Of a DNA stretch of 30,349 bases, positions 6,292 to 27,164 are shown in pieces. The position numbers and the translations under genes are program-made. The DNA is from a virus. The stretch spans positions 1-30,349 of the IMG/VR virus record IMGVR_UViG_3300024054_000385. One strand, 5' to 3'. The notes below the pieces were generated by a model. The model was not told the DNA's origin and made no database searches. It saw nothing but the letters and a program-made list of their open reading frames with translations. The stretch's first letter is position 1, and each line of letters begins with the position of its first letter.

Positions 6292-7413
6292 TCAGCCAAC
6301 CAGACCCAGCTCATAACTGGTGCTGCGGCCACTGGCCTCGGACTTCTTCAGCGCCCCGCGTTCAACCAGATCGGAAATGTCACGCAGCGCCGTGTCTTGC
6401 GAGCACTTGGCAATTGCGGCCCACTTGCTGCTGGTGAGTTTCCCATCGAAGCCATCAATCAACTTGTTGAGCAGTTTGATCTGCCGATCGTTCATCGGTA
6501 CACCTACCCAGTGCTGCCAAAAGCGCGCCTTGGCCAGCACCGACGCCAGAGTTGCCTCGGCCCCTTGGATGGCCCTGAGCAGACACCCCAGGAACCACTC
6601 AAGCCATGAGGTGACATCCATGCCCCCTTTTTGAGTGTCTTCCAGGCGATCGTAGTATTCCTTGTACTCCTGCCGAATCTGGGCAGACAAGCTGTAAAAG
6701 CGTTGGCTTGACTGCTCCGCACGCGCCAGCGCCATGTCGCCCACAGCACGTGCGATACGGCCATTGCCATCCTCAAACGGATGGACAGTCACGAACCACA
6801 AGTGCGCCAACCCCGCCTTGATTACCGGATCATCTTGCTGATCCAGATTGAACCAATTGAGGAAGTCGCCCATCTCCGCATCCAATAAATATGCTGGTGG
6901 CGCCTCGTAATGAACTTTCTGGCGTTGGATCGGGCCTGAGACCACTTGCATGGGTCCCTGAGCATCATCTCGCCATTGGCCCACGCGGATTTTGGTGAGA
7001 CTGCTGTAGCCGGTGGGAAACATGGCCGCGTGCCAGCCAAACAAACGTTCAGCTGTCAGATGTGTGTTGTGGCGCTGGGTAGCATCGAGCACCATGTCCA
7101 CCACGCCATCCACATGCCGGTCCGTCGGTGCCAGGGCACCGATGTCCACACCCAGGCGGCGGGCGATGGACGACCGCACCGAGTCGGGGTTGAGCCTCTC
7201 GCCTTCGATTTCGCTGGTCTTGAGCACATCCTCGGTCAAGACACGCAAAGTGGCCTGATCGCGCACATCGAGCCCCAGGTCGTGCATGCGGCCGAGCAGG
7301 TGGCCCTGCGCCATGTGAACCTGGGCGAGCAACGGTGCCAGCCGCTTGTGGTCGTAACCCCAGTGCGGCCAGTCGTTTTGCTCCCAGATGTACCGTTTAT
7401 CTTCGCTTTCCAT
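6292..7413 (-). CDS. Fic-family protein (putative AMP-transferase), class II
   Basis: 373 aa. The catalytic loop HPFEDGNGRIAR (residues 211-222) matches HPFx(D/E)GNGRxxR completely, so it should transfer AMP (or another nucleotide moiety) from a nucleotide to a target hydroxyl. The N-terminal helix carries TSEIEG (66-71), the S/TxxxE(G/N) inhibitory motif, placing it among self-inhibited class II enzymes with no separate antitoxin needed. The N-terminal region resembles the DUF4172 extension, and a winged helix fills the C-terminus (about 305-373). The ATG at 7413 is preferred over a GTG at 7437. A possible promoter (TTGACG, 17 bases, CACAAT) would start transcription almost at the ATG. It converges with the plus-strand block, so it looks like accessory cargo. 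Confidence 0.95.
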   Translation of the reverse strand: MESEDKRYIWEQNDWPHWGYDHKRLAPLLAQVHMAQGHLLGRMHDLGLDVRDQATLRVLTEDVLKTSEIEGERLNPDSVRSSIARRLGVDIGALAPTDRHVDGVVDMVLDATQRHNTHLTAERLFGWHAAMFPTGYSSLTKIRVGQWRDDAQGPMQVVSGPIQRQKVHYEAPPAYLLDAEMGDFLNWFNLDQQDDPVIKAGLAHLWFVTVHPFEDGNGRIARAVGDMALARAEQSSQRFYSLSAQIRQEYKEYYDRLEDTQKGGMDVTSWLEWFLGCLLRAIQGAEATLASVLAKARFWQHWVGVPMNDRQIKLLNKLIDGFDGKLTSSKWAAIAKCSQDTALRDISDLVERGALKKSEASGRSTSYELGLVG

Positions 7414-7473
7414 GCGGTGATTGTGGGCGGTTTTCACCGCAGCGTCAAGTCAATCTCCGCACTTATTGCGTCT

Positions 7474-7734
7474 TTAAACCGATGGATTCGCCGCATCAGC
7501 GGCTATCCGTTGGGCGCCCTGACGCACCCGCAGGGCTTCAAAGCTGCGGCGCAATGCGTAACTTCGAATGATCGATACGCCGGTAAAGACGAGGCCAATC
7601 AGCAGATTCTCGACAATGGTCACTGCCAGTCCGAACAGCGGGAACACCACCACTTGCGTGAGCACCGCCACGCCGTAGCCCACCAGCACATTGGCCAGCG
7701 ATTCCACCAGAGACATCAGACGCGACTGCTTCAT
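7474..7734 (-). CDS. DUF7220-type small membrane protein
   Basis: 86 aa beginning MKQSRLMSLVESLANVLVGY, the signature of the DUF7220 family. Two hydrophobic helices (about 12-32 and 35-56) are joined by a short turn, followed by a basic cytoplasmic tail (RSYALRRSFEALRVR), so it should be an inner-membrane hairpin. Its start overlaps the stop of the methyltransferase gene by four bases (ATGA). Function is unknown; its size, topology and closeness to an endolysin-like peptidase allow a holin-like role, but the same family also occurs in non-lytic settings. Confidence 0.8.
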   Translation of the reverse strand: MKQSRLMSLVESLANVLVGYGVAVLTQVVVFPLFGLAVTIVENLLIGLVFTGVSIIRSYALRRSFEALRVRQGAQRIAADAANPSV

Positions 7735-9017
7735 GCGGCCACCTCGGCGTCATCCCCGGCGACATTGACGACACCGGCCAGGTCATTGAACTTCACCGCA
7801 TCAGCTTCCCGGTACGCCTCTTGCCCGCTCCAGTCCTGCCAGCGGCGCACGATCACGTCGACGTACTTGGGGTCGAGTTCGATCAGCCAGCCGATGCGGC
7901 CAGATTTTTCTGCTGCGATCAGGGTGGTACCGGAGCCGCCGAACGGGTCCAGCACGATGTCGCCAGGTCGGCTTGAATTGCGGATGGCGCGCTCGACCAG
8001 TTCCACCGGCTTCATGGTCGGGTGCAGATCGTTCTTTTGCGGCTTCTTGATATTCCACACGTCGCCCTGGTCACGGTCACCGCACCAGTGACGGTTCTGA
8101 CCTTCCGGCCAGCCGTAGAGGATGGGCTCGTACTGCCGCTGGTAGTCCGCGCGGCCGAGCGTGAAGGTGTTCTTGGCCCAGATGATGAAAGTGGACCATT
8201 TGCCACCGGCGGCTCGGAAGGCCGACTGCAGTGTGTCCAGTTCGCTGGAGGACATAGCCACATAGACGGCACCGGTGCAGCGTTGCAACATCGGGGTCAG
8301 GGCTGCCTTGAGGAAGGGTTCGAAGTCTTCCCCCAAGTTGTCGTTGAGAATCGGCCGGTGCGTACCGCGCAGCTTGTCCTTGGCACTGTTGGCGTAATTC
8401 ACGCCATAAGGCGGATCGCAAAAAACCATGTCAGCCGTGGAATCAGCCATCAGAGCCTCATAGCTCTTTGGATCGGTGGCATCGCCGCACACCAGTCGGT
8501 GATTGCCCAGTTCCCAGACATCGCCGGGGCGAGAGATCGGTGTAGCCGAGACTTCGGGCACGGCATCGTCGTCCGTATTGCCATCGACCGTGATCTCTTC
8601 TCCCGCCATGATCTCGGCCAGTGCATCGGCATCGAAGCCGGTGATGTCCAGGTTGAAACCATCCTCCTGCAAGGACTGCAGCTCGATGCGCAGCATGGCG
8701 TCGTCCCAGCCTGCGTTTTCTGCAATGCGGTTGTCCGCGATGATGAGGGCCCGGCGCTGGGTGGGCGTCAAGTGATCGAGCACGATCACCGGCACCGTTT
8801 CCAGGCCCAGCTTTTGTGCAGCGGAGACACGCCCATGCCCAGCCACAATCACGCCATCGGACCCAGCAAGGATCGGATTGGTAAAGCCAAACTCAACAAT
8901 GCTGGCGGCGATCTGCGCCACCTGCTCATCTGAATGGGTACGGGCATTTCTGGCATAGGCAATGAGCTTTGCGGTGGGCCAGCGTTCAATGTGGGTAGAG
9001 AGCCAGGGTTCAGACAT
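7731..9017 (-). CDS. ParB-domain DNA methyltransferase (DPPY type)
   Basis: 428 aa. Residues about 10-105 form a ParB/Sulfiredoxin-like domain (ARNARTHSDEQVAQIAASIV, then GHGRVSAAQKLG). A DNA methylase N4/N6 domain follows, with catalytic motif IV as CDPPYG (about 200) and the S-adenosylmethionine motif as DPFGGSGTTLIAA (about 370). Motif IV before motif I is the beta-class order, and DPPY suggests N6-adenine as the target. No partner nuclease is visible, so it is probably an orphan phage methylase that hides phage DNA from host restriction or marks it. The start overlaps the M15 peptidase gene by eight bases. It is a paralogue of the protein at 9446. Confidence 0.95.
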   Translation of the reverse strand: MSEPWLSTHIERWPTAKLIAYARNARTHSDEQVAQIAASIVEFGFTNPILAGSDGVIVAGHGRVSAAQKLGLETVPVIVLDHLTPTQRRALIIADNRIAENAGWDDAMLRIELQSLQEDGFNLDITGFDADALAEIMAGEEITVDGNTDDDAVPEVSATPISRPGDVWELGNHRLVCGDATDPKSYEALMADSTADMVFCDPPYGVNYANSAKDKLRGTHRPILNDNLGEDFEPFLKAALTPMLQRCTGAVYVAMSSSELDTLQSAFRAAGGKWSTFIIWAKNTFTLGRADYQRQYEPILYGWPEGQNRHWCGDRDQGDVWNIKKPQKNDLHPTMKPVELVERAIRNSSRPGDIVLDPFGGSGTTLIAAEKSGRIGWLIELDPKYVDVIVRRWQDWSGQEAYREADAVKFNDLAGVVNVAGDDAEVAA

Positions 9018-9459
9018 GGATCAGCCCCGGTTCGTAAACAGTCTTGCCCTGAGCAAACTTGGCGGTGAGCAATTGGGTGCGTTCGTTGGAAGCGGCGACC
9101 GACAGGTGTGCCCACCGGCCAAACTCGTGAATGATCTGCACGCAGGGCAGCTTCAACTGGTTGACTGCTTGGCACACAGCCAACGGCGTCATGCCCGGCA
9201 CGATGATGTCGGCGGCACGCCCTTGCATGTGGTGGCTGGTCGGACTGCCACCGACGGCACGGTTCAGTGCCAGCGAACGATAGCCACTGGTGATCACCAC
9301 CGGGCACGCCAATTTGACACGCAGGGGTTCCAGCACCGACTGACACAGCCGACGCAGGTTCTCGACGGCATCAATCGGTGGCTCGTTGACGATGCCACGG
9401 CGGGCCGCCGTTTCCGAGACCAAAAACTCGGCCAGTTCGAAATGTTCAGACAGTTGCAT
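9010..9459 (-). CDS. Peptidase M15-type D-Ala-D-Ala carboxypeptidase/endolysin
   Basis: 149 aa of the Peptidase_M15_3 type. LSEHFELAEFLVSETAARRG opens the domain, and the zinc site is seen as SHHMQGRAADI (about 75-85) plus a late histidine in EFGRWAHLSV. Such enzymes cut peptidoglycan cross-links, and in phages they serve as endolysins or virion lysins. There is no signal peptide, so it would need a holin or other route out. The ATG at 9459 is chosen because GGGAAG precedes it; a start at 9492 would overlap the upstream methylase more deeply. Being embedded between two paralogous methyltransferases is unusual. Confidence 0.88.
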   Translation of the reverse strand: MQLSEHFELAEFLVSETAARRGIVNEPPIDAVENLRRLCQSVLEPLRVKLACPVVITSGYRSLALNRAVGGSPTSHHMQGRAADIIVPGMTPLAVCQAVNQLKLPCVQIIHEFGRWAHLSVAASNERTQLLTAKFAQGKTVYEPGLIHV

Positions 9460-10852
9460 GTTCTTCCCGCCGCTGGGCAGCGACGACCTCAAAGGGTTCT
9501 CCGGTGGCGGCCAGGGTGACTGGCACGCCAGGAAAGTTCTGTTGGAAACGGATCAGCGCCACGTCGACGTACTCGGGCGCGATCTCTACGGCACGGCCAA
9601 TGCGACCGGTACGCTGTGCCGCCATCAGCGTGGTGCCACTGCCGCAAAATGGCTCAAACACGATCTCGCCTTCATCGGTGTAGGTCTCGATAACTTCCAC
9701 CGGCAGCGTCACCGGGAAAACGGCGGGGTGATCGATGTCCTTGCCGATCTTTCCCTTGTGGCGCATGACGCGGATCACAGAATCGGGAATGCGGTGGTCT
9801 TGCGTGGGCTGACCCGCAGCGGTCCAGCCGTTGACCTGACCGTCCTTGCCACGCATCGCGGTCGATGAGCCGTCGGCGCGCAGGTGCGTTTCCTGGCCGG
9901 CGAACTTGCAGGGCACCGTCTTGTTCGGTTTGCGCGTCTGCCGGTTGAAGTGAAAGATGAATTCGAAGCTCGGGGCCAGGCGGCCTTGCCAGTCACCCGG
10001 CATGCCCGGCCCTTGATCCCACACGTACCAGGCAAAACGCCGCCAACCTTGGCTGCGCATCCAATCGAGCCACGCGTCCCAATACGGGATGAACTCGTTG
10101 TCGCGGTGGATGAGCCCGAGGTTGACCAGCACCTGGCCATCGTTCGCGATAGGCACCTGCGCGAACACGCCATGCATCAGGCCATCCCAGTCGGCAATGC
10201 CACCGGAGGTGTAGTCGCGCTGGTTGCCATAGGGTGGCGAGGTGAAGCACAGGCTGGCCTGCTCGCCTTGCATCAGCTTGGCGATCACGGACGGATCACT
10301 GGCGTCGCCGCAGATCAAGCGGTGCGAGCCAAGCTGCCAAACGTCACCGGCCCGCGTGATGGCCTGCTTGGGTGGTTCTGGGACATCGTCATCTGCTTCG
10401 GCGTCCGATTCATCATCGGCACCGTCAGCATCGGGTTCGTCCAAGTCGGCCACCATCTTGGCGAGCTCGTCATCGTCGAAGCCAGTGAGCTGCAGGTCGT
10501 AACCGGCCTCGGACAGCTCTGCCAGTTCGAGCGCCAGCAACTCATCATCCCAGCCAGCGTCCAGCGCCAGGCGGTTGTCAGCGATGACATAGGCACGCTT
10601 TTGCGCCGGGGTGAGGTGACCCAGTTCAATCACCGGCACCTCGGTCAGTCCCAGCGTGCGTGCCGCAGCCAGACGACCATGGCCACAAAGAATTCCATTG
10701 CCACCATCGACCAGGATCGGCTGGGTCCAGCCAAATTCCACGATGCTGGCCGCGATCTTGGCAATCTGCGCCTGGGAATGCGTGCGCGGATTTCTCGCGT
10801 ACGGCAGCAGCGCATCGATCGGGCGGTATTCGATCTGCAGGTTTGGCGTCAT
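9446..10852 (-). CDS. ParB-domain DNA methyltransferase (SPPY type)
   Basis: 468 aa, the second paralogue. A ParB-like domain (about 8-105; ARNPRTHSQAQIAKIAASIV, GHGRLAAARTLGL, VIADNRLALDAGWDDELL) is followed by an acidic linker (about 135-155, rich in Asp/Glu) and a methylase with TSPPYGN (about 205) and EPFCGSGTTLMAA (about 425). SPPY in place of DPPY is typical of N4-cytosine enzymes, so the two paralogues probably modify different bases. The ATG at 10852 is more likely than the TTG at 10861. A terminator-like hairpin ends only eight bases before it and no Shine-Dalgarno is evident, so expression may be controlled by read-through. Confidence 0.94.
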   Translation of the reverse strand: MTPNLQIEYRPIDALLPYARNPRTHSQAQIAKIAASIVEFGWTQPILVDGGNGILCGHGRLAAARTLGLTEVPVIELGHLTPAQKRAYVIADNRLALDAGWDDELLALELAELSEAGYDLQLTGFDDDELAKMVADLDEPDADGADDESDAEADDDVPEPPKQAITRAGDVWQLGSHRLICGDASDPSVIAKLMQGEQASLCFTSPPYGNQRDYTSGGIADWDGLMHGVFAQVPIANDGQVLVNLGLIHRDNEFIPYWDAWLDWMRSQGWRRFAWYVWDQGPGMPGDWQGRLAPSFEFIFHFNRQTRKPNKTVPCKFAGQETHLRADGSSTAMRGKDGQVNGWTAAGQPTQDHRIPDSVIRVMRHKGKIGKDIDHPAVFPVTLPVEVIETYTDEGEIVFEPFCGSGTTLMAAQRTGRIGRAVEIAPEYVDVALIRFQQNFPGVPVTLAATGEPFEVVAAQRREEHATV

Positions 10853-10859
10853 GGAATGC

Positions 10860-10892
10860 AAAAACCCGCCGAGCGTTGCCGCCGGGCGGGTT
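10860..10892 (-). terminator. Intrinsic terminator-like hairpin before the methyltransferase operon
   Basis: On the minus strand AACCCGCC pairs with GGCGGGTT around a 14-base loop and runs into five Ts. It would stop transcripts arriving from the early operon. It sits directly upstream of an ATG, so an attenuation or antitermination switch for the late genes is possible. Confidence 0.5.
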
Positions 10893-11877: not shown

Positions 11878-12351
11878 TCACTCGCCCTCCACAGCCATGT
11901 CACGGGCCAGGTACAACAAGGCGATGGCATCCGCCTCGTTGTCATCTACCGGGGCGTGGCCATGGGCACGGACGGCTGCCACCATCTCGTCCTTGCTGGC
12001 GTTGCCTTTGCCGGTGGCGTGCTTCTTGATCGTGCCGACCGGGATGCCCTGGTACGGGATCTGGTGGTGCTCGCACCAGGCCGTCAGCTGGCCCATGAAG
12101 CCACCGTAGGCATGGGCGGCGTCGACACCGACGTGGCGACGGACTTCTTCGAAGACCATCTGGTCGATGCCGTCGTTGCACTGCTTGATGTCGGTGAGCC
12201 AGCGCTTGAACCGAAGAAAGCGCATGCCACCGCCTTCGAAGCGTTGAGGTTTGAAGGATTGGCTGCCACTGGTGATGCTGCCGTCGCGGCTGGCCAGTGC
12301 CCAGCCGGTTTGGGTACCCAGGTCAAGGGCGAGGATGGTCATTGTGTTCAT
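11878..12351 (-). CDS. RuvC-like Holliday junction resolvase
   Basis: 157 aa with an RNase H-fold signature. The first strand carries ILALDLGTQTGWAL (Asp at residue 10), a central strand MVFEEVRRH supplies the glutamate, and the C-terminal helix has DDNEADAIALLYLA with the last acidic pair, as in RuvC-type endonucleases. It should cleave four-way junctions made during phage replication and recombination, clearing branches before packaging. GGAG lies six bases before the ATG. The preceding 143-base gap contains a large dyad. It is smaller than bacterial RuvC (about 170 aa), as usual for phage forms. Confidence 0.88.
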   Translation of the reverse strand: MNTMTILALDLGTQTGWALASRDGSITSGSQSFKPQRFEGGGMRFLRFKRWLTDIKQCNDGIDQMVFEEVRRHVGVDAAHAYGGFMGQLTAWCEHHQIPYQGIPVGTIKKHATGKGNASKDEMVAAVRAHGHAPVDDNEADAIALLYLARDMAVEGE

Positions 12352-12378
12352 TGGTCACTCCATGCGTTTTTGGCATCT

Positions 12379-12470
12379 GGTGACCGAAGGTGACCCGTTT
12401 ATCGTTAACCGCTCGCGCCTGCGCGCGTACACGTGTAGAGAGATAACGATATGCCGGTCACTTTCGGTCA
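12379..12470. repeat. 92-bp symmetrical dyad with GGTGACC iterons
   Basis: Positions 12379-12407 are complementary to 12442-12470 at 25 of 29 positions around a single centre (12424.5). Each arm carries two GGTGACC-type heptamers 10 bases apart (12379 and 12389; inverted at 12454 and 12464) and an inner TATCGTTA/TAACGATA pair. The 34-base loop includes the palindrome TACACGTGTA (12426-12435). The length and the 10-bp periodicity fit a protein-bound operator or a replication origin rather than a terminator, since no T-run follows. Confidence 0.75.
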
Positions 12471-12494
12471 CCCATTTCGGTCGGTTGATTGGGG

Positions 12495-14807
12495 TCAGTC
12501 GTCTCGATAGGGCATGTAGCCGCCCGGTTCGCGGGGTTTGAGCGACAGGCCTGACAGGGCTTTTGCCCCGCCATGCAGGCGAGTTCGCGCAAACCCACGG
12601 TTGATGAGTTGCTGGGTCAGCCAGCGGCTGGTGCCCACGTATTCGCCGCGTCGCTCGGCCCGCTCGCGCCAGCGCTGGTAGATCGCGGAAATCGCTTCAC
12701 GCGCCACGGTCGACTGCTGGCAGTCCTCGTCCAGGAACTCGCCGATCGCGTCCTCTTCTTCGAAGTACTCATCGGTGGCATCGAGCACCTGCTGGGGTGG
12801 GTCGAGCCGGCCCTGACGCTGCCACTCCAGGCAGCCTTGAACCGCCCAGGCCAGGATCCCATCCCGTTCAGCTAGGAGCTTTTGCTGCAGGTGCTTGTCA
12901 CGCCTTTCCGGTGGGACAGTGATCGTGAATGGGATCAGATGGAGCCGCCGCTTCATCGCTTCGTCGATGTTGCGAATCGCCGGCTTGTGATTGCCTGCCA
13001 CGATCAGCTTGAACTGCGGCATGAACTCGAAAAAATCCTGGCGCATGAAACGCGCAGAAATCTTGTCGCCACCGGTCAGGCTCTTGACCTTGGATTCGGC
13101 CCAGCGCCGACCTTGCTCGGTCTCGATGGCGGCGACAAACCGGGCCCCACGCAGGCTGGCCATATCGGTGGGATGCCGGTCCGTGCGGGTTTCCATGAAC
13201 GTGTCCATGGGTGCATTGGTGGCGTAGTCGCCCAGGATGGTGGCCAGGGTGTTCACGAACACCGATTTGCCATTGGCACCCGTGCCATATAGAAAGAAGA
13301 GCGCGTGCTCGCGTGTCGACCCGGTCAGGGCATACCCTGCCATCCGGGCAAGATAGGCCTGCAGAGGTTGATCACCGCCCGTGACCTCATGGATGAAGTG
13401 CCGCCAGGTGGGGCAATCCCCTTCGGGGGTGGCTGTCGTGATCTTGGTCAGTCGGTCCAGACGATCGTGGGGGCGCAGCACGCCATTCTTGAGATTTACC
13501 ACGCCGCCTGGCGTGTTGAGCAGCCAGGGGTCGGCATCCCACTCGTCGGCAGTAGCGGCATGACGCCGATCGGAGCGTGCCAGTCGCTCTAACCCGGCCA
13601 CGGTGCCACTGCTGGCGAGCTTGGCGGCAACCCGGTGCGAATCGGCCTTGAGGGCGGCCTCCCGACAGATCTGGCGCATCAGGTGGTGCGCGGCCAGGGT
13701 CTCCTCGGTTTGCCAGCGCTTGCCAGTCCAGAACACCCACTTGCCCCACAACGCGACATAGCGCCAGTCCTGGGCGTACCGCCCCGAGAAAGTCAACGCC
13801 AGCGCGTCTTCAGTGGCCCACACCGATTGCTCCGTTGGGTCGACTGGCTGCGTGGCATCTGCCGTCGACGGCTGGAACTGGATACGCTCACCATGGGCAA
13901 GGAAGGCCTCCACATCAAAGCCCTTAGCGATGGCATCCGCCGCATCCCAGCCATCCGCACTCCCTTGAGGATCTTGCGCCGTGGGATTGGACGGCGGCAG
14001 CAACACCGCGCAGTGCAAAGCACCCGCTGCCATGACCGCCTCGGCGGCATTCATGGCGTACTCCCAGCCGGGTTTGTCACGGTCAGGCCAAATCAGGACA
14101 TGCTTGCCCTGCAGCGGAGACCAGTCGGTCTTGTCGATGGGCGCGTTGGCACCGTGCATCGCGGTGGTGGAGCAATGGCCAGCGTCGATCAATGCCTGGG
14201 CGCATTTTTCGCCTTCGACCAGAATCACCCGTTCTGCATTGGCAATGCCTGGCTGATTGAACAACGGCCGGGGATCGGGCGGCGCCATCTTGCGACGCTT
14301 GGCGTCCCAGGGACGGAATTCTTTGCGCCCAGGGCTAGGTTCATAGCGATACACGCAGGCAATCAGACTGCCGTCGGCGGCCAGGTAGTCCCACTTGGCG
14401 GTGGCTGGACCCAATTCATCCACCGGCGCGGTCGCCTTGCGTTTGCCAGACGACACGGCAGGTGCACGACCAAGCAGTTCCCGGGCGAAGTCCAGCACAG
14501 CAGCGAAATCACGATGAGTGTCCCAGTGCCGATGTGCGGCAATCAGACCAAAGATATCGCCACCATTGCCCGTGGCGCGGTCGATCCACAGGCCCGCTCG
14601 TTCGCCATTCAGTTCGATTTCCAGGCTGCGGCCCGGACTGCCCAGCACATCGCCAACGACGAATTTGCCGTGTGTCACCTTGCCAGCCGGGAACAAGGCA
14701 AACAGCACCCCCTCGAGCCTTGCCAACAAGGCCGATCGCAATTCATCCCGCTCGGCATTCCCGTTGGGTGATGGAACAGCGGGGTCTTGGTCATTGAAAT
14801 CAAGCAT
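12495..14807 (-). CDS. Phage primase-helicase (Toprim + D5/SF3 helicase)
   Basis: 770 aa, near the size of P4 alpha (777 aa). The N-terminal half has a Toprim-type primase core with VILVEGEKCAQALIDAG (about 195-211) and VLIWPDRDKPGWEYA (about 240-254). A D5-type linker region (about 340-490) is followed by the SF3 helicase: Walker A FLYGTGANGKSVFVNT (about 510), Walker B-like FVAAIETEQGRR and sensor motif KLIVAGNHKP. It should prime and unwind phage DNA at its origin. AAGGAGGT precedes the ATG at 14807 by four bases, which rules out the GTG at 14813. It overlaps the 114-aa gene by eight bases, and the dyad follows its stop by 24 bases. Confidence 0.95.
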   Translation of the reverse strand: MLDFNDQDPAVPSPNGNAERDELRSALLARLEGVLFALFPAGKVTHGKFVVGDVLGSPGRSLEIELNGERAGLWIDRATGNGGDIFGLIAAHRHWDTHRDFAAVLDFARELLGRAPAVSSGKRKATAPVDELGPATAKWDYLAADGSLIACVYRYEPSPGRKEFRPWDAKRRKMAPPDPRPLFNQPGIANAERVILVEGEKCAQALIDAGHCSTTAMHGANAPIDKTDWSPLQGKHVLIWPDRDKPGWEYAMNAAEAVMAAGALHCAVLLPPSNPTAQDPQGSADGWDAADAIAKGFDVEAFLAHGERIQFQPSTADATQPVDPTEQSVWATEDALALTFSGRYAQDWRYVALWGKWVFWTGKRWQTEETLAAHHLMRQICREAALKADSHRVAAKLASSGTVAGLERLARSDRRHAATADEWDADPWLLNTPGGVVNLKNGVLRPHDRLDRLTKITTATPEGDCPTWRHFIHEVTGGDQPLQAYLARMAGYALTGSTREHALFFLYGTGANGKSVFVNTLATILGDYATNAPMDTFMETRTDRHPTDMASLRGARFVAAIETEQGRRWAESKVKSLTGGDKISARFMRQDFFEFMPQFKLIVAGNHKPAIRNIDEAMKRRLHLIPFTITVPPERRDKHLQQKLLAERDGILAWAVQGCLEWQRQGRLDPPQQVLDATDEYFEEEDAIGEFLDEDCQQSTVAREAISAIYQRWRERAERRGEYVGTSRWLTQQLINRGFARTRLHGGAKALSGLSLKPREPGGYMPYRDD

Positions 14808-15144
14808 GGACACCTCCTTCGTCGGTGTCCGCAGGGTTCAAGTAGCCCGCCTTGGTCGCGATCTCCCGCATGAATTCAGGCGACAAGTCGATCAGGTCGC
14901 ACCAAAGTTCCAAACGCCCGTCCTGGAAAAATCGTCGGGCCTCGGCACGCTGATGCTTCGATGGTGAGCAAAGGTCGACGAACGCCTGTTTGATCACCGC
15001 CACAATCAGCCGCGACTCCGGGCATACGACCGAGACATGACGCAGAAGTAGGCGCTCCAGCAGGGATGCGCCGATCAGGGGTTTCTGGCGACGGGTGGTC
15101 ACCGTCAATGCCTCGATGGCAGGTTGAGGAAGACGTGCATTCAT
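14800..15144 (-). CDS. Hypothetical 114-aa phage protein
   Basis: Sequence MNARLPQPAIEALTVTTRRQ, then LLERLLLRHVSVVCPESRLI and a helical C-terminus (QRAEARRFFQDGRLELWCDL, PEFMREIATKAGYL). The FMREIATKAGY ending looks like a small helical motif, but I do not recognise the family. The ATG at 15144 overlaps the nuclease stop as ATGA. It sits between nuclease and primase-helicase, so a role in replication or recombination is likely. Confidence 0.7.
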   Translation of the reverse strand: MNARLPQPAIEALTVTTRRQKPLIGASLLERLLLRHVSVVCPESRLIVAVIKQAFVDLCSPSKHQRAEARRFFQDGRLELWCDLIDLSPEFMREIATKAGYLNPADTDEGGVHA

Positions 15145-21294: not shown

Positions 21295-21801
21295 TCAACG
21301 CCCCTCGAAGGCCGTCAGCAGCTGGTCCAATTCGAGGATCTTCAATCTGGCGGCATCGAGCACCGTCTTCGGAAAATGCTTGGCATAGCTCTGACGTTCC
21401 GTCAGATCGACGTCGATCAAATGCTGAATCGCCTTTTTACAGTCCGCACATTGGTCGGCTGGGCGTCTTCCCAGAATCGACAGCAACAGACCTTCGAAGC
21501 AAGGTATCGAGCCGACCATGTCGATCTTGGCTTTTCGAGCATCCTTCTTCAGTTTGTCAGTCCATGGAATGTCTGTATCAAGCAGGGCAGCACGTGCGTC
21601 ATAGCTGTAAATTCTGGCCTGCCGTGCCGCGTGATCAATGACGTTCTCCGGGCCTTTGCCGTGTGCATTGCGCACGGTCACAGCTACGCCAGCGCCACCA
21701 GAGCAATAAAGATCACGCAGATGCTTGAGGAAGGCCTCCTCCGAGTCACCTTCGCCAACGATCAGCAGCGTTTTACGAACCCGATGTTGTTTGCGAGCCA
21801 T
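21295..21801 (-). CDS. RloB-like Toprim-fold protein
   Basis: 168 aa. LLIVGEGDSEEAFLKHLRDL at the N-terminus supplies the glutamate of a Toprim-like site; the second strand has RAALLDTDIPW with the acidic DxD, and IPCFEGLLLSIL follows in the usual RloB position. Two Cys (QCADCKKA) could bind metal. RloB proteins pair with an ABC-type ATPase (RloA/AbiL type) in phage-defence and restriction-linked loci and are thought to be metal-dependent nucleases. It begins nine bases after the ATPase stop; the ATG at 21801 follows AAGGGA. Family call fairly sure; nuclease activity is inferred. Confidence 0.8.
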   Translation of the reverse strand: MARKQHRVRKTLLIVGEGDSEEAFLKHLRDLYCSGGAGVAVTVRNAHGKGPENVIDHAARQARIYSYDARAALLDTDIPWTDKLKKDARKAKIDMVGSIPCFEGLLLSILGRRPADQCADCKKAIQHLIDVDLTERQSYAKHFPKTVLDAARLKILELDQLLTAFEGR

Positions 21802-21810
21802 CACCGTCCC

Positions 21811-22995
21811 TTACAACTGGGGGATGGCGCCGTAAGCACCCGCCATGTATTTGGCGTACAGGTTGTCATCGGCACGAACACCCTTGACGCTGTCCAGTCG
21901 CCAGGCATCGCTCTCGCAGTTATCGTCTTTTTCGACCAGTACCACCTGCGCCTTGTGCAGCAGGCTCAACACCTCGATGGAATGGCAGGTAAAAATGATC
22001 TGCGCATTGTGCGGGTTGGTTTTCTGAGAAAAGTACAAATCCAGTAGCGGGGTGAGCATGTGCGGATGAAGATCCGCCTCGAGCTCATCGATCACGACCA
22101 GACCACCGTGCTGCAGCGCCGGCAAGATGCGGGACAGCAAAATGAACGCGCCCTGGGTACCGCTGGATTCATGCAAAAACATCAATGGATGTTCTTTGTC
22201 GCCCACGCGGTGAATGCCGAAGGGGATGTGAATCTCTTCGGTTTTGCCACTTTCACGTGTCACCGTGTGTTTCTCGACACGCACATCCGACAGGCCAAAA
22301 TCCCACTGATGCAACAGGGTCGCCATCTGGCTACGAATGCCAATGTTTTTGGCATAGAACTCGGAGGCGCGCATGATCTGATCATGATCCATGGCCTGAC
22401 GACCCAGGCCATAGACGTTACTCAGCACATTGGCAGACACCAGTTTCAAGGCCAAATCCACTTCGTACTGTGCGGCCGTCGAAATCAGCGATGCGTTTTC
22501 GCGAACCTTCTCAGCTTCCTTTTGAAGCATGCCGAACTGCTGCTGTTTGACCGTATAGCCCTTGCGTTCAGGATTCCATTCGCGGGTAAAGACATACGAG
22601 AAGGCACGGCTTTGTTTGCTGTACAGCGACTCGTGGTAGACGCGATCCCTTGAGGCAATCAGACGGTAGCGCCATTCACGGCCGTCGAACTCGAACTCCA
22701 CCTCGAAGGTGCTGGGCTCGGTCGTTGCCGAAAAGTGGGCTGCCAGGGGAATCTGATCGTCTGGCTTGGCATGAAACGAGTGCTTGACGAACCAGTCGAC
22801 GAAGACCAGCGATTTGATCAAGGTTGTTTTACCGCTTGCGTTGGCGCCTACGACCGCGATGGCTTTGGAAAGGCGGGTGCCAAGAGCAGACGTGCAGGAC
22901 CGGCCATCCTCAGGGGTGTGGCGGTTCAGTTCCAGCGATATCTGCACGGGCTCTCTGAACGACTGGAAGTTTTGCAGGGTGAATGAGCGAAGCAT
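21811..22995 (-). CDS. OLD/COG1106-type ABC ATPase (AbiL/RloA-like)
   Basis: 394 aa. LRSFTLQNFQSFREPVQISL opens the ABC/SMC-like fold; Walker A is AVVGANASGKTTLI (47-60), the signature segment LHESSGTQGAFILL (about 276-289), Walker B GLVVIDELEADLHPHML (about 300-316) and the switch histidine IIFTCHSIEVL. This is the COG1106/AAA_15 type seen in two-gene abortive-infection systems with RloB-like partners. It should sense invading phage and gate the partner's activity. It has its own promoter with a palindromic spacer and codon use visibly less GC-rich than neighbouring phage genes, so it was probably acquired as a cassette. Confidence 0.93.
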   Translation of the reverse strand: MLRSFTLQNFQSFREPVQISLELNRHTPEDGRSCTSALGTRLSKAIAVVGANASGKTTLIKSLVFVDWFVKHSFHAKPDDQIPLAAHFSATTEPSTFEVEFEFDGREWRYRLIASRDRVYHESLYSKQSRAFSYVFTREWNPERKGYTVKQQQFGMLQKEAEKVRENASLISTAAQYEVDLALKLVSANVLSNVYGLGRQAMDHDQIMRASEFYAKNIGIRSQMATLLHQWDFGLSDVRVEKHTVTRESGKTEEIHIPFGIHRVGDKEHPLMFLHESSGTQGAFILLSRILPALQHGGLVVIDELEADLHPHMLTPLLDLYFSQKTNPHNAQIIFTCHSIEVLSLLHKAQVVLVEKDDNCESDAWRLDSVKGVRADDNLYAKYMAGAYGAIPQL

Positions 22996-23098: not shown

Positions 23099-23578
23099 TT
23101 AGATGGCGGGCTGGTTTTGTGGACAAAAGCCCAGCAACCGCCGCTGCTCATCCCAGTCCACAGGCACGTCCGCCTGCCGACCCCGGACTGCGTGAAGATT
23201 GAGGTGGCGCGGCTGCCGGCCATCCAAAATAGCCTGCACGATGTCGGGTGCCAGGCGTGTGAGCCGCAACACCTCGGCGACCCAGCCTGGCTCCAGCTTC
23301 AATTGCCGCGCCAGTTCGGTGGCATTGGCGACCTCGCCGCTATCGAGCAGCTTTTGCCAATAGAAAGCCTTGCCGATCGTGCGGATCATGGGCAAGTCGA
23401 ATGATGATCGGACCTTGGCATCTTCCTGGCCAGGCGGCGCAATCAGCAGTTTGCGGGTGTGCCGGCGCTTGATGGTCAAGGGGACAAAAGTTACAGCCGA
23501 GCCCTGGCTCAGGTATTCACGCGACGGACCCGACACCGATATCTCGATCTTGCAACGCTGCCGGTTTGCCTGGGTCAT
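23099..23578 (-). CDS. KorB/ParB-like HTH partner of the recombinase
   Basis: 159 aa with an HTH of the KorB/ParB type: LARQLKLEPGWVAEVLRLTR, then LAPDIVQAILDGRQPRHLNL (about 85-130), with a basic N-terminus (PLTIKRRHTRKLLIAPPGQ). The end VDWDEQRRLLGF is common in small proteins encoded right after serine recombinases. It overlaps the recombinase stop as ATGA. It probably binds att DNA or controls the module as an architectural or directionality factor; that role is inferred from context. Confidence 0.75.
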   Translation of the reverse strand: MTQANRQRCKIEISVSGPSREYLSQGSAVTFVPLTIKRRHTRKLLIAPPGQEDAKVRSSFDLPMIRTIGKAFYWQKLLDSGEVANATELARQLKLEPGWVAEVLRLTRLAPDIVQAILDGRQPRHLNLHAVRGRQADVPVDWDEQRRLLGFCPQNQPAI

Positions 23579-25023
23579 GCCAGTGCCTCCTCTTCAATGC
23601 CGAGTTGCCCCAAGGCTGACACCTGCTTTTGTTCCGCGACGAAGGGATGTTGTGCCAGTTCGCGTCGGAAGCGTTGCCACCCATCTTCCCGCCAAACGAT
23701 ATCGAGACCATCCTGGTGCAGTTGCACACGCTCAACCAAGAGCCGCATGATGCGGTGCTGCTCTACCGGGAACATCTGCGCCCAGATGTCGCCAATGCGG
23801 CGCATGGCCACCACGATCATGGCTTCATCGAGATCGGGTTGCTCCTGCATTGCCAGCACTTCGCGCCACACGCCGATGATCATCTCGGGCTCCTGCAATA
23901 CGCACAGGACCTGCATCAGTACGGCTGACTCGATTTCAGCGGCGGGCATAGGACCCATGCTGCGCTGGCCGGGGATGCGTGATGCACCCGCCGTCTGTCG
24001 CTTTTCCAGGTAAGGGACGTAGTAGTGGTAACGCTTGCCGTTTTTCTTCTGCGTGTAGGTTGGCAGCATGCGCTGGCCGTCAGGGGCGTAGAGGAATCCC
24101 GCCAGCAGTGCCGGGGCCTCGTTGTACCGGTCACGGCTCGTGCTGCGTTTGCGTTGCGCAACGATTGCGTCGACCGCTTCCCATTGCGCCGCCGAGATGA
24201 TGGGCTGGTGTTGACCTTTGAAGACATCGCCCTTGTGCGAGATCTCACCCAAGTACAGACGGTTGCGCAGAAGCTTGAACAGGTACTGCTGATCAATGAT
24301 GCGGCCGTGGTGGAATTTGCCGGTCTGTGTCTCCCAGGACTTTGTGGTGTGCCCTTCAACCTGGAGCTCACGTACCAGACGAGCAGCCGATCCGTGTTCT
24401 GCGTAACGGGTAAAGATTTCGCGCACCAGTGCCGCCTCCCTTTCGTTGACGACGAGCTTGCGATCTTTGACGTCATAACCCAAGGGCGGCACGCCGCCCA
24501 TCCACATTCCCTTGGCCTTGCTGGCGGCGATCTTGTCGCGGATCCGCTCACCCGTGACCTCACGTTCGAACTGGGCAAAGGACAGCAGGATGTTGAGCGT
24601 CAGACGTCCCATCGACGTCGTGGTGTTGAACTGCTGGGTCACGGATACGAACGAGACCCCGTGCCGATCGAACACTTCCACCAGCCGCGCGAAATCCGGC
24701 AGGCTGCGCGTCAGGCGGTCAATCTTGTAGACCACGACGATGTCGATCTTTCCGTCCTCGATGTCGGCCATCAATCGGCGCAACCCCGGCCGCTCCATAT
24801 TGCCTCCGGAGAAACCGCCATCGTCATAGCCATCGGCCACAGCGATCCAGCCTTCATGGCGCTGACTGGCAATGTAGGCAAGCCCGGCATCACGCTGCGC
24901 CTCCAGGCTGCTGTATTCCATGTCCAAGCCTTCATCGGTGGACTTGCGGGTGTAGACCGCACAGCGCCGCTTGGGGGTGGTGGCAGGCGTTTGCGTGTTT
25001 GGGTAGGGCGTGGGTTTTCTCAT
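23575..25023 (-). CDS. Large serine recombinase (integrase)
   Basis: 482 aa. The resolvase catalytic domain (about 18-165) has the nucleophile serine in YTRKSTDEGL, DGGFSGGNMERPGL and the arginines of KIDRLTRSLPDFARL; then ITGERIRDKIAASKAKGMWM-type helix E (here VTGERIRDK). A Recombinase domain (about 180-300) includes GYDVKDRKLVVNE and LLRNRLYLGEISHKG; the rest is helical. It should integrate and excise the element by rotating four cut strands at short att sites. It is at the short end of the large serine recombinase range. The ATG overlaps the DUF2924 stop (ATGA). Confidence 0.96.
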   Translation of the reverse strand: MRKPTPYPNTQTPATTPKRRCAVYTRKSTDEGLDMEYSSLEAQRDAGLAYIASQRHEGWIAVADGYDDGGFSGGNMERPGLRRLMADIEDGKIDIVVVYKIDRLTRSLPDFARLVEVFDRHGVSFVSVTQQFNTTTSMGRLTLNILLSFAQFEREVTGERIRDKIAASKAKGMWMGGVPPLGYDVKDRKLVVNEREAALVREIFTRYAEHGSAARLVRELQVEGHTTKSWETQTGKFHHGRIIDQQYLFKLLRNRLYLGEISHKGDVFKGQHQPIISAAQWEAVDAIVAQRKRSTSRDRYNEAPALLAGFLYAPDGQRMLPTYTQKKNGKRYHYYVPYLEKRQTAGASRIPGQRSMGPMPAAEIESAVLMQVLCVLQEPEMIIGVWREVLAMQEQPDLDEAMIVVAMRRIGDIWAQMFPVEQHRIMRLLVERVQLHQDGLDIVWREDGWQRFRRELAQHPFVAEQKQVSALGQLGIEEEALA

Positions 25024-25884: not shown

Positions 25885-26841
25885 TCAACGCACCGGCGGC
25901 TGGCCCTTGCGCACGAAACGATCGAAGGTGTTTTCAAGGCCATCGTCGTCATCGTCCGTCTTGTCGCGCTCCCAAGGCTTGACCTCGGGCGGGAGGACCA
26001 GCAGGGTCATCGTTTGGCGATAGAGGTCGGATGCGATGCGCATCTCGCGCGCCACCATGCCCTCGGGCTCCTGCGGAAACCAGATGCGCGCATCTATCGG
26101 CGTGCCCAACCGATCGACGTTGGTGTCCGTGCCCAAACGTGTGGCACTCCTGGCTGGCAATGGCCGGCGCTGACGATTGGCCAGCCGTTTGTTCAGATAA
26201 ATGGAGAGCCATTTGCCTGACTCGCTTCCGCAAGCCCACTGGACGACCCCATTCTGGGACATGACCAGCACCGCACGCTGGGGCGTTAGCTCCAGCCACT
26301 TCAGAATGGCCGAAGTCATGGACACGCCATACCGATCCGCGCATGCACCGAGCACATCCAGATCGATGGTTGCCCCCTGGATCTGCCGACGGTAATCATC
26401 CGCAGGCATCAGCAGGTAGGACGCAAACGTATTCGCCTCAAATTCAATCTGGCGCTCTTCGCTGTCCCATTGGGTGGTATCGACTTCGCTGCAGTTGAAA
26501 GACGGCTGCAGATGGCGATGCACCAGGTAATGTCCGAGCTCGTGTGCCAGCGTGAACCGTATCCGCCCAGGGGAACTGATCGCCTGGTTGTAAATGATGG
26601 CCCAGTTGCCCTTGCCCGGCGCATCGGCATTCAGGTTGAACAGCGCCCCTTCGAACTCCGGGTCCATGGCTTTGCCCTGGATGGCGATCGGCTCCCCAGT
26701 CTGGAAGGTTGCCGGCACCTCCGGAATCAGCGCCTCAACATCGACAGGGAAACGGTCGCCGCCATGGACAGCATGGAGCTGATCCAAGATTTTGTTCAGT
26801 CGAATGGCAACTGCCTTCGGTTTGCTGGGCAGCTCGATCAT
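25885..26841 (-). CDS. ImmA/IrrE family metallopeptidase
   Basis: 318 aa. The zinc site is HELGH (100-104) with the third ligand in FEANTFASYLLMP (Glu135). The N-terminal part resembles the COG2856 domain; a long C-terminal extension (about 190-318) ends in an acidic run (DKTDDDDDG). In ICEBs1 and related elements ImmA cleaves the XRE repressor encoded next to it to derepress the element. Here it follows the XRE gene with an ATGA overlap, so the same anti-repressor role is probable. The extension could carry a sensor. Confidence 0.93.
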   Translation of the reverse strand: MIELPSKPKAVAIRLNKILDQLHAVHGGDRFPVDVEALIPEVPATFQTGEPIAIQGKAMDPEFEGALFNLNADAPGKGNWAIIYNQAISSPGRIRFTLAHELGHYLVHRHLQPSFNCSEVDTTQWDSEERQIEFEANTFASYLLMPADDYRRQIQGATIDLDVLGACADRYGVSMTSAILKWLELTPQRAVLVMSQNGVVQWACGSESGKWLSIYLNKRLANRQRRPLPARSATRLGTDTNVDRLGTPIDARIWFPQEPEGMVAREMRIASDLYRQTMTLLVLPPEVKPWERDKTDDDDDGLENTFDRFVRKGQPPVR

Positions 26842-27164
26842 CCTTGGGTCTTCTTGAGGGTCTTCAGGATTTCAAGGAGCTGATGCTTGGTCTCGGGTTT
26901 GAGCATCTTGTAGTTTCGGAAGAACGCCTTGTCGAAGGCATCCACCGGCTGGTCTGCCTGCTCGTTGTGGGCCAGGAACTCTGGCGTGACGTTCAGGACA
27001 GCGGCGATGCTGGCCAGTTTTTCCATGGTGGGGTTGGCGTCGTCGTTGTTTTCCAACTCCCAGAGATAGCTCTTGCTCATGCCGGCGGCGGCGGCCAGTG
27101 CGTCGAGACTCAACTTCTGCTCACGGCGCAGCCTGCGAATTTTGTCGCCAAGTGGGGTTGCCAC
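26838..27164 (-). CDS. XRE-family repressor
   Basis: 108 aa starting at GTG (27164), with AGGAG about five bases upstream. HTH_3 motif LGDKIRRLRREQKLSLDALA then AAAGMSKSYLWELENNDDAN (about 5-45), followed by a helical tail probably for dimerisation. It should repress its own promoter and the divergent promoter of the 411-aa gene, and be cleaved by the ImmA-like protease. The intergenic region of 266 bases is ample for operators. Fairly high confidence for the family. Confidence 0.92.
   Translation of the reverse strand: MATPLGDKIRRLRREQKLSLDALAAAAGMSKSYLWELENNDDANPTMEKLASIAAVLNVTPEFLAHNEQADQPVDAFDKAFFRNYKMLKPETKHQLLEILKTLKKTQG

Follow-up and report, generated by a model that had tools for sequence, protein, structure and literature searches.

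The window and its genes

The window, by which we mean the whole stretch of DNA analysed, is a virus record of 30,349 bases with phage genes, including those for a large terminase and a serine recombinase (Table 1). The P4-family primase-helicase scored 367.4 bits against the TIGR01613 profile, above the curated cut-off of 108.7, and its residues 132-306 matched phrog_239 ('DNA primase/helicase'). No Pfam Toprim match was obtained in this protein, and its EGEK and DRD motifs, which we take to be of Toprim type, were spotted by eye only. Several other genes of the window deserve mention. The adjoining AbiLii/RloB and AbiLi/AAA_21 matches form a phage-borne cassette of abortive-infection type, while the M78 peptidase and the HTH repressor that it adjoins look like a peptidase-repressor pair. 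The serine recombinase is possibly the prophage integrase. Two methyltransferase genes, near each other, are found downstream of the dyad region described below, and the window also has a Fic-domain gene.

Table 1. Features of the 30,349-base window, with positions and strands.
Feature	Position	Strand	Remarks
Fic-domain protein	6292-7437	-	With DUF4172; matches SoFic
First methyltransferase gene	7731-9017	-	ParB_N and N6/N4 DNA methyltransferase matches
Second methyltransferase gene	9446-10861	-	ParB_N (under the curated cut-off) and N6/N4 DNA methyltransferase matches
RuvC-like Holliday junction resolvase	11878-12351	-	phrog_159; downstream neighbour of the primase-helicase
Gap, primase stop to RuvC-like start	12352-12494		143 nt; holds the dyad
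Whole dyad (proposed origin core)	12379-12472		94 bp, two inverted arms
Arm 1	12379-12407	+	GGTGACC at 12379-12385 and 12389-12395 (10-bp step); inner box TATCGTTA at 12400-12407
Alternating purine-pyrimidine tract	12420-12437		TGCGCGCGTACACGTGTA, 18 nt
Arm 2, inverted	12444-12472	-	Inner box TAACGATA at 12444-12451; GGTCACT at 12456-12462 and GGTCACC at 12466-12472
P4-family primase-helicase	12495-14813	-	772 aa; D5_N; TIGR01613
C-terminal domain, predicted winged helix	12498-12893	-	Codons 641-772
Helix with residue 730	12600-12629	-	Codons 729-738; residue 730 is Arg in the window
AbiLii/RloB match	21295-21804	-	
AbiLi/AAA_21 match	21811-22995	-	
Serine recombinase	23575-25023	-	Resolvase and Recombinase domains
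M78 peptidase	25885-26841	-	Matches capP
HTH repressor	26838-27164	-		

Anatomy of the dyad

The sequence-only reading had placed in this gap a dyad of 92 bp ending at 12470 and centred on 12424.5. The dyad is real, while its length, end and centre had to be corrected to 94 bp, 12472 and 12425.5. Its arms of 29 nt each, complementary at 25 positions and separated by 36 nt, are those already described, and each arm has two GGTGACC-type heptamers at a distance of 10 bases, as earlier given. The inner boxes of both arms are also present, as is the loop string TACACGTGTA (12428-12437), the latter displaced by 7 bp from the dyad centre. Between the dyad and the primase stop (ORF end 12495) there are 22 bases and not 24 as earlier given, and the RuvC-like start is 27 nt from the dyad.

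The GGTGACC word alone is not rare, with 7 occurrences in the window against 5.3 expected. The paired word, when up to two mismatches are allowed, occurs 10 times, a count reached in none of 100 shuffles, and all of its matches with no or one mismatch are inside the two arms. The best inverted repeat of the gap scored 19, whereas none of 30 dinucleotide shuffles scored above 8, and the dyad was the sole inverted repeat with a score of at least 13 and a loop of 30-90 nt found in the whole window. Neither promoter-like nor terminator-like sites (a G+C stem followed by a T-run; 0 found) were detected in 12200-12700. GC skew, which had been suggested as a check, showed no turn at 12.4 kb in this 30-kb fragment. 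When the dyad alone was compared with a phage collection, the matches listed were only short ones, with E of about 6.

Of the 60 bp that separate the inner words, 33 are G+C, so that this core is not AT-rich. It includes the alternating purine-pyrimidine tract of Table 1, which may serve in melting or priming or as a Z-DNA element.

Conservation of the dyad in relatives

Primase scans provided 80 loci from genomes (87 relatives found) and 80 from viral contigs (296 found), a set that is consequently not exhaustive. The relatives in genome records belonged to many Burkholderiales, Lysobacterales and other proteobacteria. Together with the window, the 160 fetched loci gave 161 primase-bearing loci. 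In 147 of them the gap from the primase to a RuvC-like gene could be measured, and these gaps were grouped into 59 distinct clusters. Eleven loci were left out because of contig ends or the lack of a RuvC match, and three more because their gap was only 15 nt. Among the eleven, L081 and L106 carry the dyad. The contigs of L005, L002 and L117 stop within an apparent dyad, and those of L053, L100, L101, L110 and L121 end before the dyad position; the eleventh locus is L029, described below.

The gap was 115-160 nt long in 144 of the 147 loci. Its best inverted repeat exceeded all 30 shuffles in 56 of the 59 distinct gaps, failing to do so in L043, L072 and L057, and a score of at least 13 was reached in 54 of the 59 gaps against none of 354 control stretches from the same loci. 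The outer 17 bp of the dyads had a median of 16 paired positions, and the median outer span was 97 bp. In the lineage of L060, L063 and L065, in which both the primase and RuvC genes are present and separated by the 15-nt gap, no such dyad was found in the 12 kb examined; the sole near-threshold repeat there was one of 12-13 bp, free of tandem words and within the primase gene. In L029, at 7244, the primase match ends at residue 745, and neither a dyad nor a RuvC match follows; this locus is probably a decayed or rearranged prophage. The sequence after its truncated primase resembles, by eye, the methyltransferase of the window. Relatives that keep the primase and have lost the dyad or let it decay, which the sequence-only reading regarded as the evidence against its proposal, were therefore few: the L060/L063/L065 lineage, L043, L072 and L057, to which the truncated L029 may be added.

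In the comparison of relatives that the same reading had proposed, the arms change and keep their symmetry. The loop does not simply drift but retains the alternating tract: the median run is 21 nt in the relatives, shuffles giving some 6 nt, and runs this long are significant for their composition (p ≤ 0.01) in all but 4 of the 59 gaps.

Words vary between lineages on a constant layout of two TGAC-type words per arm, mostly 9 or 10 bp apart. We sorted them into four broad classes of our own making, 49 of the 59 gaps being assigned by rule (with hand overrides for two of these, L076 and L077) and 10 by hand. Class A (TGACCGA type, 13 clusters) has a 10-bp step in 11 of 13, class B (TGACGCA type, 20 clusters) a 9-bp step in 16 of 20, class C (22 clusters, a mixture of TGACGG and TGACAG words) a 9-bp step in 20 of 22, and class D (TGGC type, 4 clusters) a 9-bp step in all four. 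The window belongs to class A, L125 to class B and L153 to class C. The outer and inner words of one arm agree on average in 2.0 of their 3 variable letters, compared with 1.1 between loci of different class, and none of 2000 permutations reached this agreement (55 of 59 gaps scored). Likewise, tandem repetition within an arm was above that of shuffled arms (p ≤ 0.05) in 45 of 59 gaps. Base pairing alone would not demand such tandem words.

Word class and the primase C-terminal domain

These phages are mosaic, which helps to tell linkage from function. Taking one protein region at a time, we assigned to each locus the word class of its closest relative, the agreement expected by chance being 0.30. 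With residues 641-772 of the primase, the prediction was correct in 55 of 58 cases, while the remaining parts of the protein gave 28/53 (residues 1-140), 31/53 (141-330), 40/59 (331-500) and 40/58 (501-640). In windows of 30 residues, the agreement peaked at 723-752 (55.8/58). The RuvC-like protein gave 23/59, its first 60 residues 27.6/59, and five other neighbour genes ranged from 0.28 to 0.59; one of these, encoding a DUF6362 protein, was the one nearby candidate regulator scored (20/47). An upstream 137-aa protein was left unscored, with only 6 usable relatives.

Trees gave a similar picture. On quick trees (58, 58, 59, 53 and 54 rows), the fewest class changes needed were 7 with the C-terminus, 16 with each of two middle parts of the primase, 18 with the N-terminus and 22 with RuvC; removal of columns 726-739 raised the changes on the C-terminus tree from 7 to 10. 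Additionally, pairs of loci alike in RuvC (at least 88%) and divergent in the C-terminus (below 75%) had a common class in only 1 of 16 cases, against 28 of 30 for pairs alike in the C-terminus (at least 88%) and divergent in RuvC (below 80%). RuvC was accordingly rejected as the reader of the dyad (23/59 agreement, 22 tree changes, 1/16 pairs), and so were the five other neighbours, given their agreement of 0.28-0.59. The words and the C-terminus are close together, and linkage helps them to travel jointly. In this regard, the RuvC start and the primase end are at 27 and 22 nt from the dyad, so proximity alone does not account for the difference between both genes. These sequence relationships show that the word class is co-inherited with the primase C-terminal domain, and not with the other genes tested.

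The 40 most class-informative columns of the primase included 36 within residues 641-772; among the best 30 of these 40, seven were in 728-735 and most others across 686-767, with two (313 and 333) outside the domain. Residue 730 was the best primase column scored, the runner-up reaching 84%. It is Lys when GG follows TGAC or TGGC, and otherwise Arg, in 56 of 58 rows, a rule stated post hoc since the trait was picked after looking at the data and its word label was that of the outer right word, selected by our closeness rule. GG was seen in the two outer words in 0 of 34 Arg rows and on at least one side in 23 of 24 Lys rows. On the tree, residue 730 and the word trait change 9 and 10 times, and of seven independent pairs 5.5 went in the same direction and none in the opposite one (median p 0.031, range 0.031-0.0625).

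The model of the C-terminal domain (pLDDT 86) contains helices at 708-722 and 729-738, followed by two strands. In structural alignments it matched best the DNA-binding domain of RFX (Z 9.1-9.9) and the C962R tail of ASFV (Z 7.5), the latter being described as similar to the P4 origin-binding domain and to RFX1 (PMC10516667). Foldseek returned nothing at E ≤ 0.001 with this model (best 0.0016), and PDB sequences searched with a profile of the C-terminus gave nothing relevant (best E 1.4). The solved P4 domain was not among the structure matches listed, which is no evidence against kinship. On the basis of the model, the C-terminus of the primase is predicted to be a winged helix like those of RFX and the C962R tail.

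Comparison with known systems

In SaPIs and other PICIs, the origin is reported to be located directly 3' of the initiator helicase gene (rep), to have a core with a set of short iterons on either side, and to be recognised by the C-terminal domain of the initiator (PMC6092414, PMC7581432; the location and iteron sets of PICIs in the former). The layout of the window is alike, and the co-variation described above is a parallel to that recognition. The window differs in belonging to a tailed phage or prophage, in having mostly two inverted words per arm and other words, and in a core with an alternating purine-pyrimidine tract that is not AT-rich.

Phage P4 resembles the window in its P4-family primase-helicase, alpha, and in having crr right 3' of the alpha gene. 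Within each 120-bp crr repeat, a pair of 8-bp type 1 repeats with a spacing of 9 bp is followed by an inverted pair with a spacing of 18 bp, and by one further copy. Two such crr repeats and a separate annotated origin are present in P4, whereas the window has one dyad with regular steps. In SCCmec, the D5-type helicase Cch2 likewise binds repeats that lie immediately 3' of the gene encoding it; the difference is that this binding needed the direct repeats (three iterons), deletion of the inverted repeats being without effect (PMC7581432).

The archaeal plasmid pRN1 has a 21-bp inverted repeat with a 58-nt loop, 53 nt 3' of its P4-family primase gene, and the family of the window resembles this layout 3' of the primase gene, with its 17 outer bp paired at a median of 16 positions and its median outer span of 97 bp. 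The pRN1 stem-loop is reported to be required for replication; the authors say that iterons are missing from it, and they observed no specific binding (PMC4234260). In our analysis, a 9-bp tandem was present in the arms of pRN1 (p 0.006) and pHEN7 (0 of 1000 shuffles), and that in the arms of pRN2 (p 0.19) and pDL10 (p 0.45) was not significant; in pSSVx, no dyad was found in positions 1-500. The pRN family differs from the window in its archaeal-type primase domain and AT-rich loop.

Sixteen distant P4-family phages were also examined. Outside that count, AcaML1, whose primase is a close relative (64%), has the dyad. The full layout was found 3' of the primase in five of the 16, all of them mycobacteriophages (Murucutumbu, LilPharaoh, TClif, Angelica and Cheetobro). 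As in the window, they carry tandem words of 9-10 bp arranged as inverted pairs, the tandem being reached in 0 or 1 of 1000 shuffles; they differ in their longer loops of 83-91 nt and in their words (GCACAGAT, GAACAGAT and GGGGACAT). A small annotated ORF covers the dyad of TClif. A RusA-like resolvase gene comes directly afterwards in three of the five. In the mycobacteriophage loci L165, L179 and L181, the primase gene is followed by a word-rich gap of about 400 nt and then by a RusA-like resolvase gene; the succession from initiator through an origin-like gap to a resolvase is that of the window, although the resolvase itself is another one. A literature search revealed no published origin for the five mycobacteriophages.

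The full layout was missing 3' of the primase in the other 11 phages. An inverted repeat above 40 shuffles was present in Lactobacillus T25, Listeria B025 and Sebastisaurus, with no tandem in the arms of T25 and B025. That of Eponine was weak (reached by 0 of 40 shuffles in one run and 4 of 40 in another), and no inverted repeat above shuffles was seen in Kaylissa, phiMiGM15, Bachaco, RcCronus, DSP2, BoostSeason and Samy. As a separate observation on loop sequences, the core of the window (12430-12441) and the loop of Murucutumbu (L165, 2974-3381) both contain CACGTGTAGAGA, their words and hosts being different, and the pHEN7 loop contains the similar CTACACGCGTGTAG.

Interpretation of the dyad

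The dyad is very probably a replication start, because in related phages its words change with the DNA-binding tail of the primase and not with the neighbour genes tested. In our view it would be a double-stranded replication origin, located 3' of the gene for its own initiator and bound by the winged helix of the primase-helicase. The comparison of loci shows the anatomy of the dyad, its conservation, the joint change of its words, their co-inheritance with the C-terminus and not with the other genes tested, and the association between residue and word, and this co-variation argues that the C-terminus of the initiator sets origin specificity. Of the two possibilities earlier offered, an origin or a cooperative operator, the former is thus favoured, since the word class follows the primase C-terminus.

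The main rival is a primase-bound accessory or copy-control site like the P4 crr, required for replication without being its start. In P4, crr is directly 3' of alpha and has type 1 repeats in both orientations, and some 4.5 kb separate it from the annotated origin, so the window dyad could be auxiliary in the same way; moreover, co-variation shows only who reads the dyad. However, the window, which may be a fragment, yielded only a single dyad of this type, and the 3' site is the origin itself in PICIs and pRN1. We consider this alternative unlikely.

Tandem half-sites on one helix face combined with symmetry are usual for operators, and the dyad is upstream of the RuvC-like gene, so that a phage regulator could bind it cooperatively and control transcription of the RuvC-side genes. 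Nevertheless, the stretch 12200-12700 offers no promoter-like site that would give the operator positive support, and the class follows the primase C-terminus in 55 of 58 cases, as opposed to the DUF6362 protein (20/47) and four other neighbours. An operator is for these reasons very unlikely.

It is also most improbable that recognition by the primase depends on an extruded hairpin or cruciform, that is, on structure over sequence. With DNA parameters, the minus strand does fold much more favourably than its shuffles (z -4.9), and the authors of the pRN1 study favour a stem-loop (PMC4234260). Against this, the tandem words within the arms (p ≤ 0.05 in 45 of 59 gaps) are not needed for pairing, and the letters of these words follow the primase C-terminal domain. 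Finally, an RNA hairpin in the operon transcript (a processing site, attenuator or terminator) is scarcely credible: the gap is within the operon and the transcript-sense fold reaches -53.5 kcal/mol (z -5.2), but the outer-arm mismatches in the transcribed sense (A.C 103, G.T 78) show no G-U preference or tolerance, which argues against an RNA role, the region holds no terminator-like site, and the one Rfam match was sub-threshold (18.5 bits vs 197).

Returning to the origin, its way of working may be proposed by analogy with SaPI/PICI, P4, pRN1 and SCCmec Cch2, from which binding, double-ring loading, melting and bidirectional replication are inferred. The C-terminal winged helix would bind the four TGAC-type words as iterons, two in tandem per arm at about one helical turn, with the arms facing each other. 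Owing to this symmetry, the 60-bp core would receive two SF3 helicase rings of opposite orientation; it would then melt, the N-terminal primase domain would prime, and forks would leave in both directions.

Significance for the phage family

Many tailed phages lack a known replication origin, and such sites are difficult to recognise by sequence. A literature search revealed no description of the origin of this phage family. The kind of origin proposed is already known, and what the family adds is a variant that differs in its core and whose mosaics amount to an uncommonly clear natural test of specificity. A wider idea, which we offer tentatively and regard as rather doubtful, is that of an initiator-origin code. 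According to it, the primase tail and the inverted iteron dyad would be exchanged as one module, with Lys or Arg at residue 730 setting the letters after TGAC. The 2+2 plan, with a class-specific step of 9 or 10 bp, would be common to archaeal pRN plasmids, mycobacteriophages and proteobacterial prophages, and in the proteobacterial branch a Z-DNA-prone tract would take the place of the AT-rich melting region. If this were true, the pRN origin, read until now as a bare stem-loop, would have the same 2+2 plan.

With the dyad as origin, the replication start of this proteobacterial phage family would be predictable from its location and the primase tail, and the natural mosaics would serve as a test of specificity. 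The dispute on pRN1, in which either a hairpin or duplex iterons are recognised, would become testable, and the association between residue 730 and the word opens the way to a direct and cheap binding experiment.
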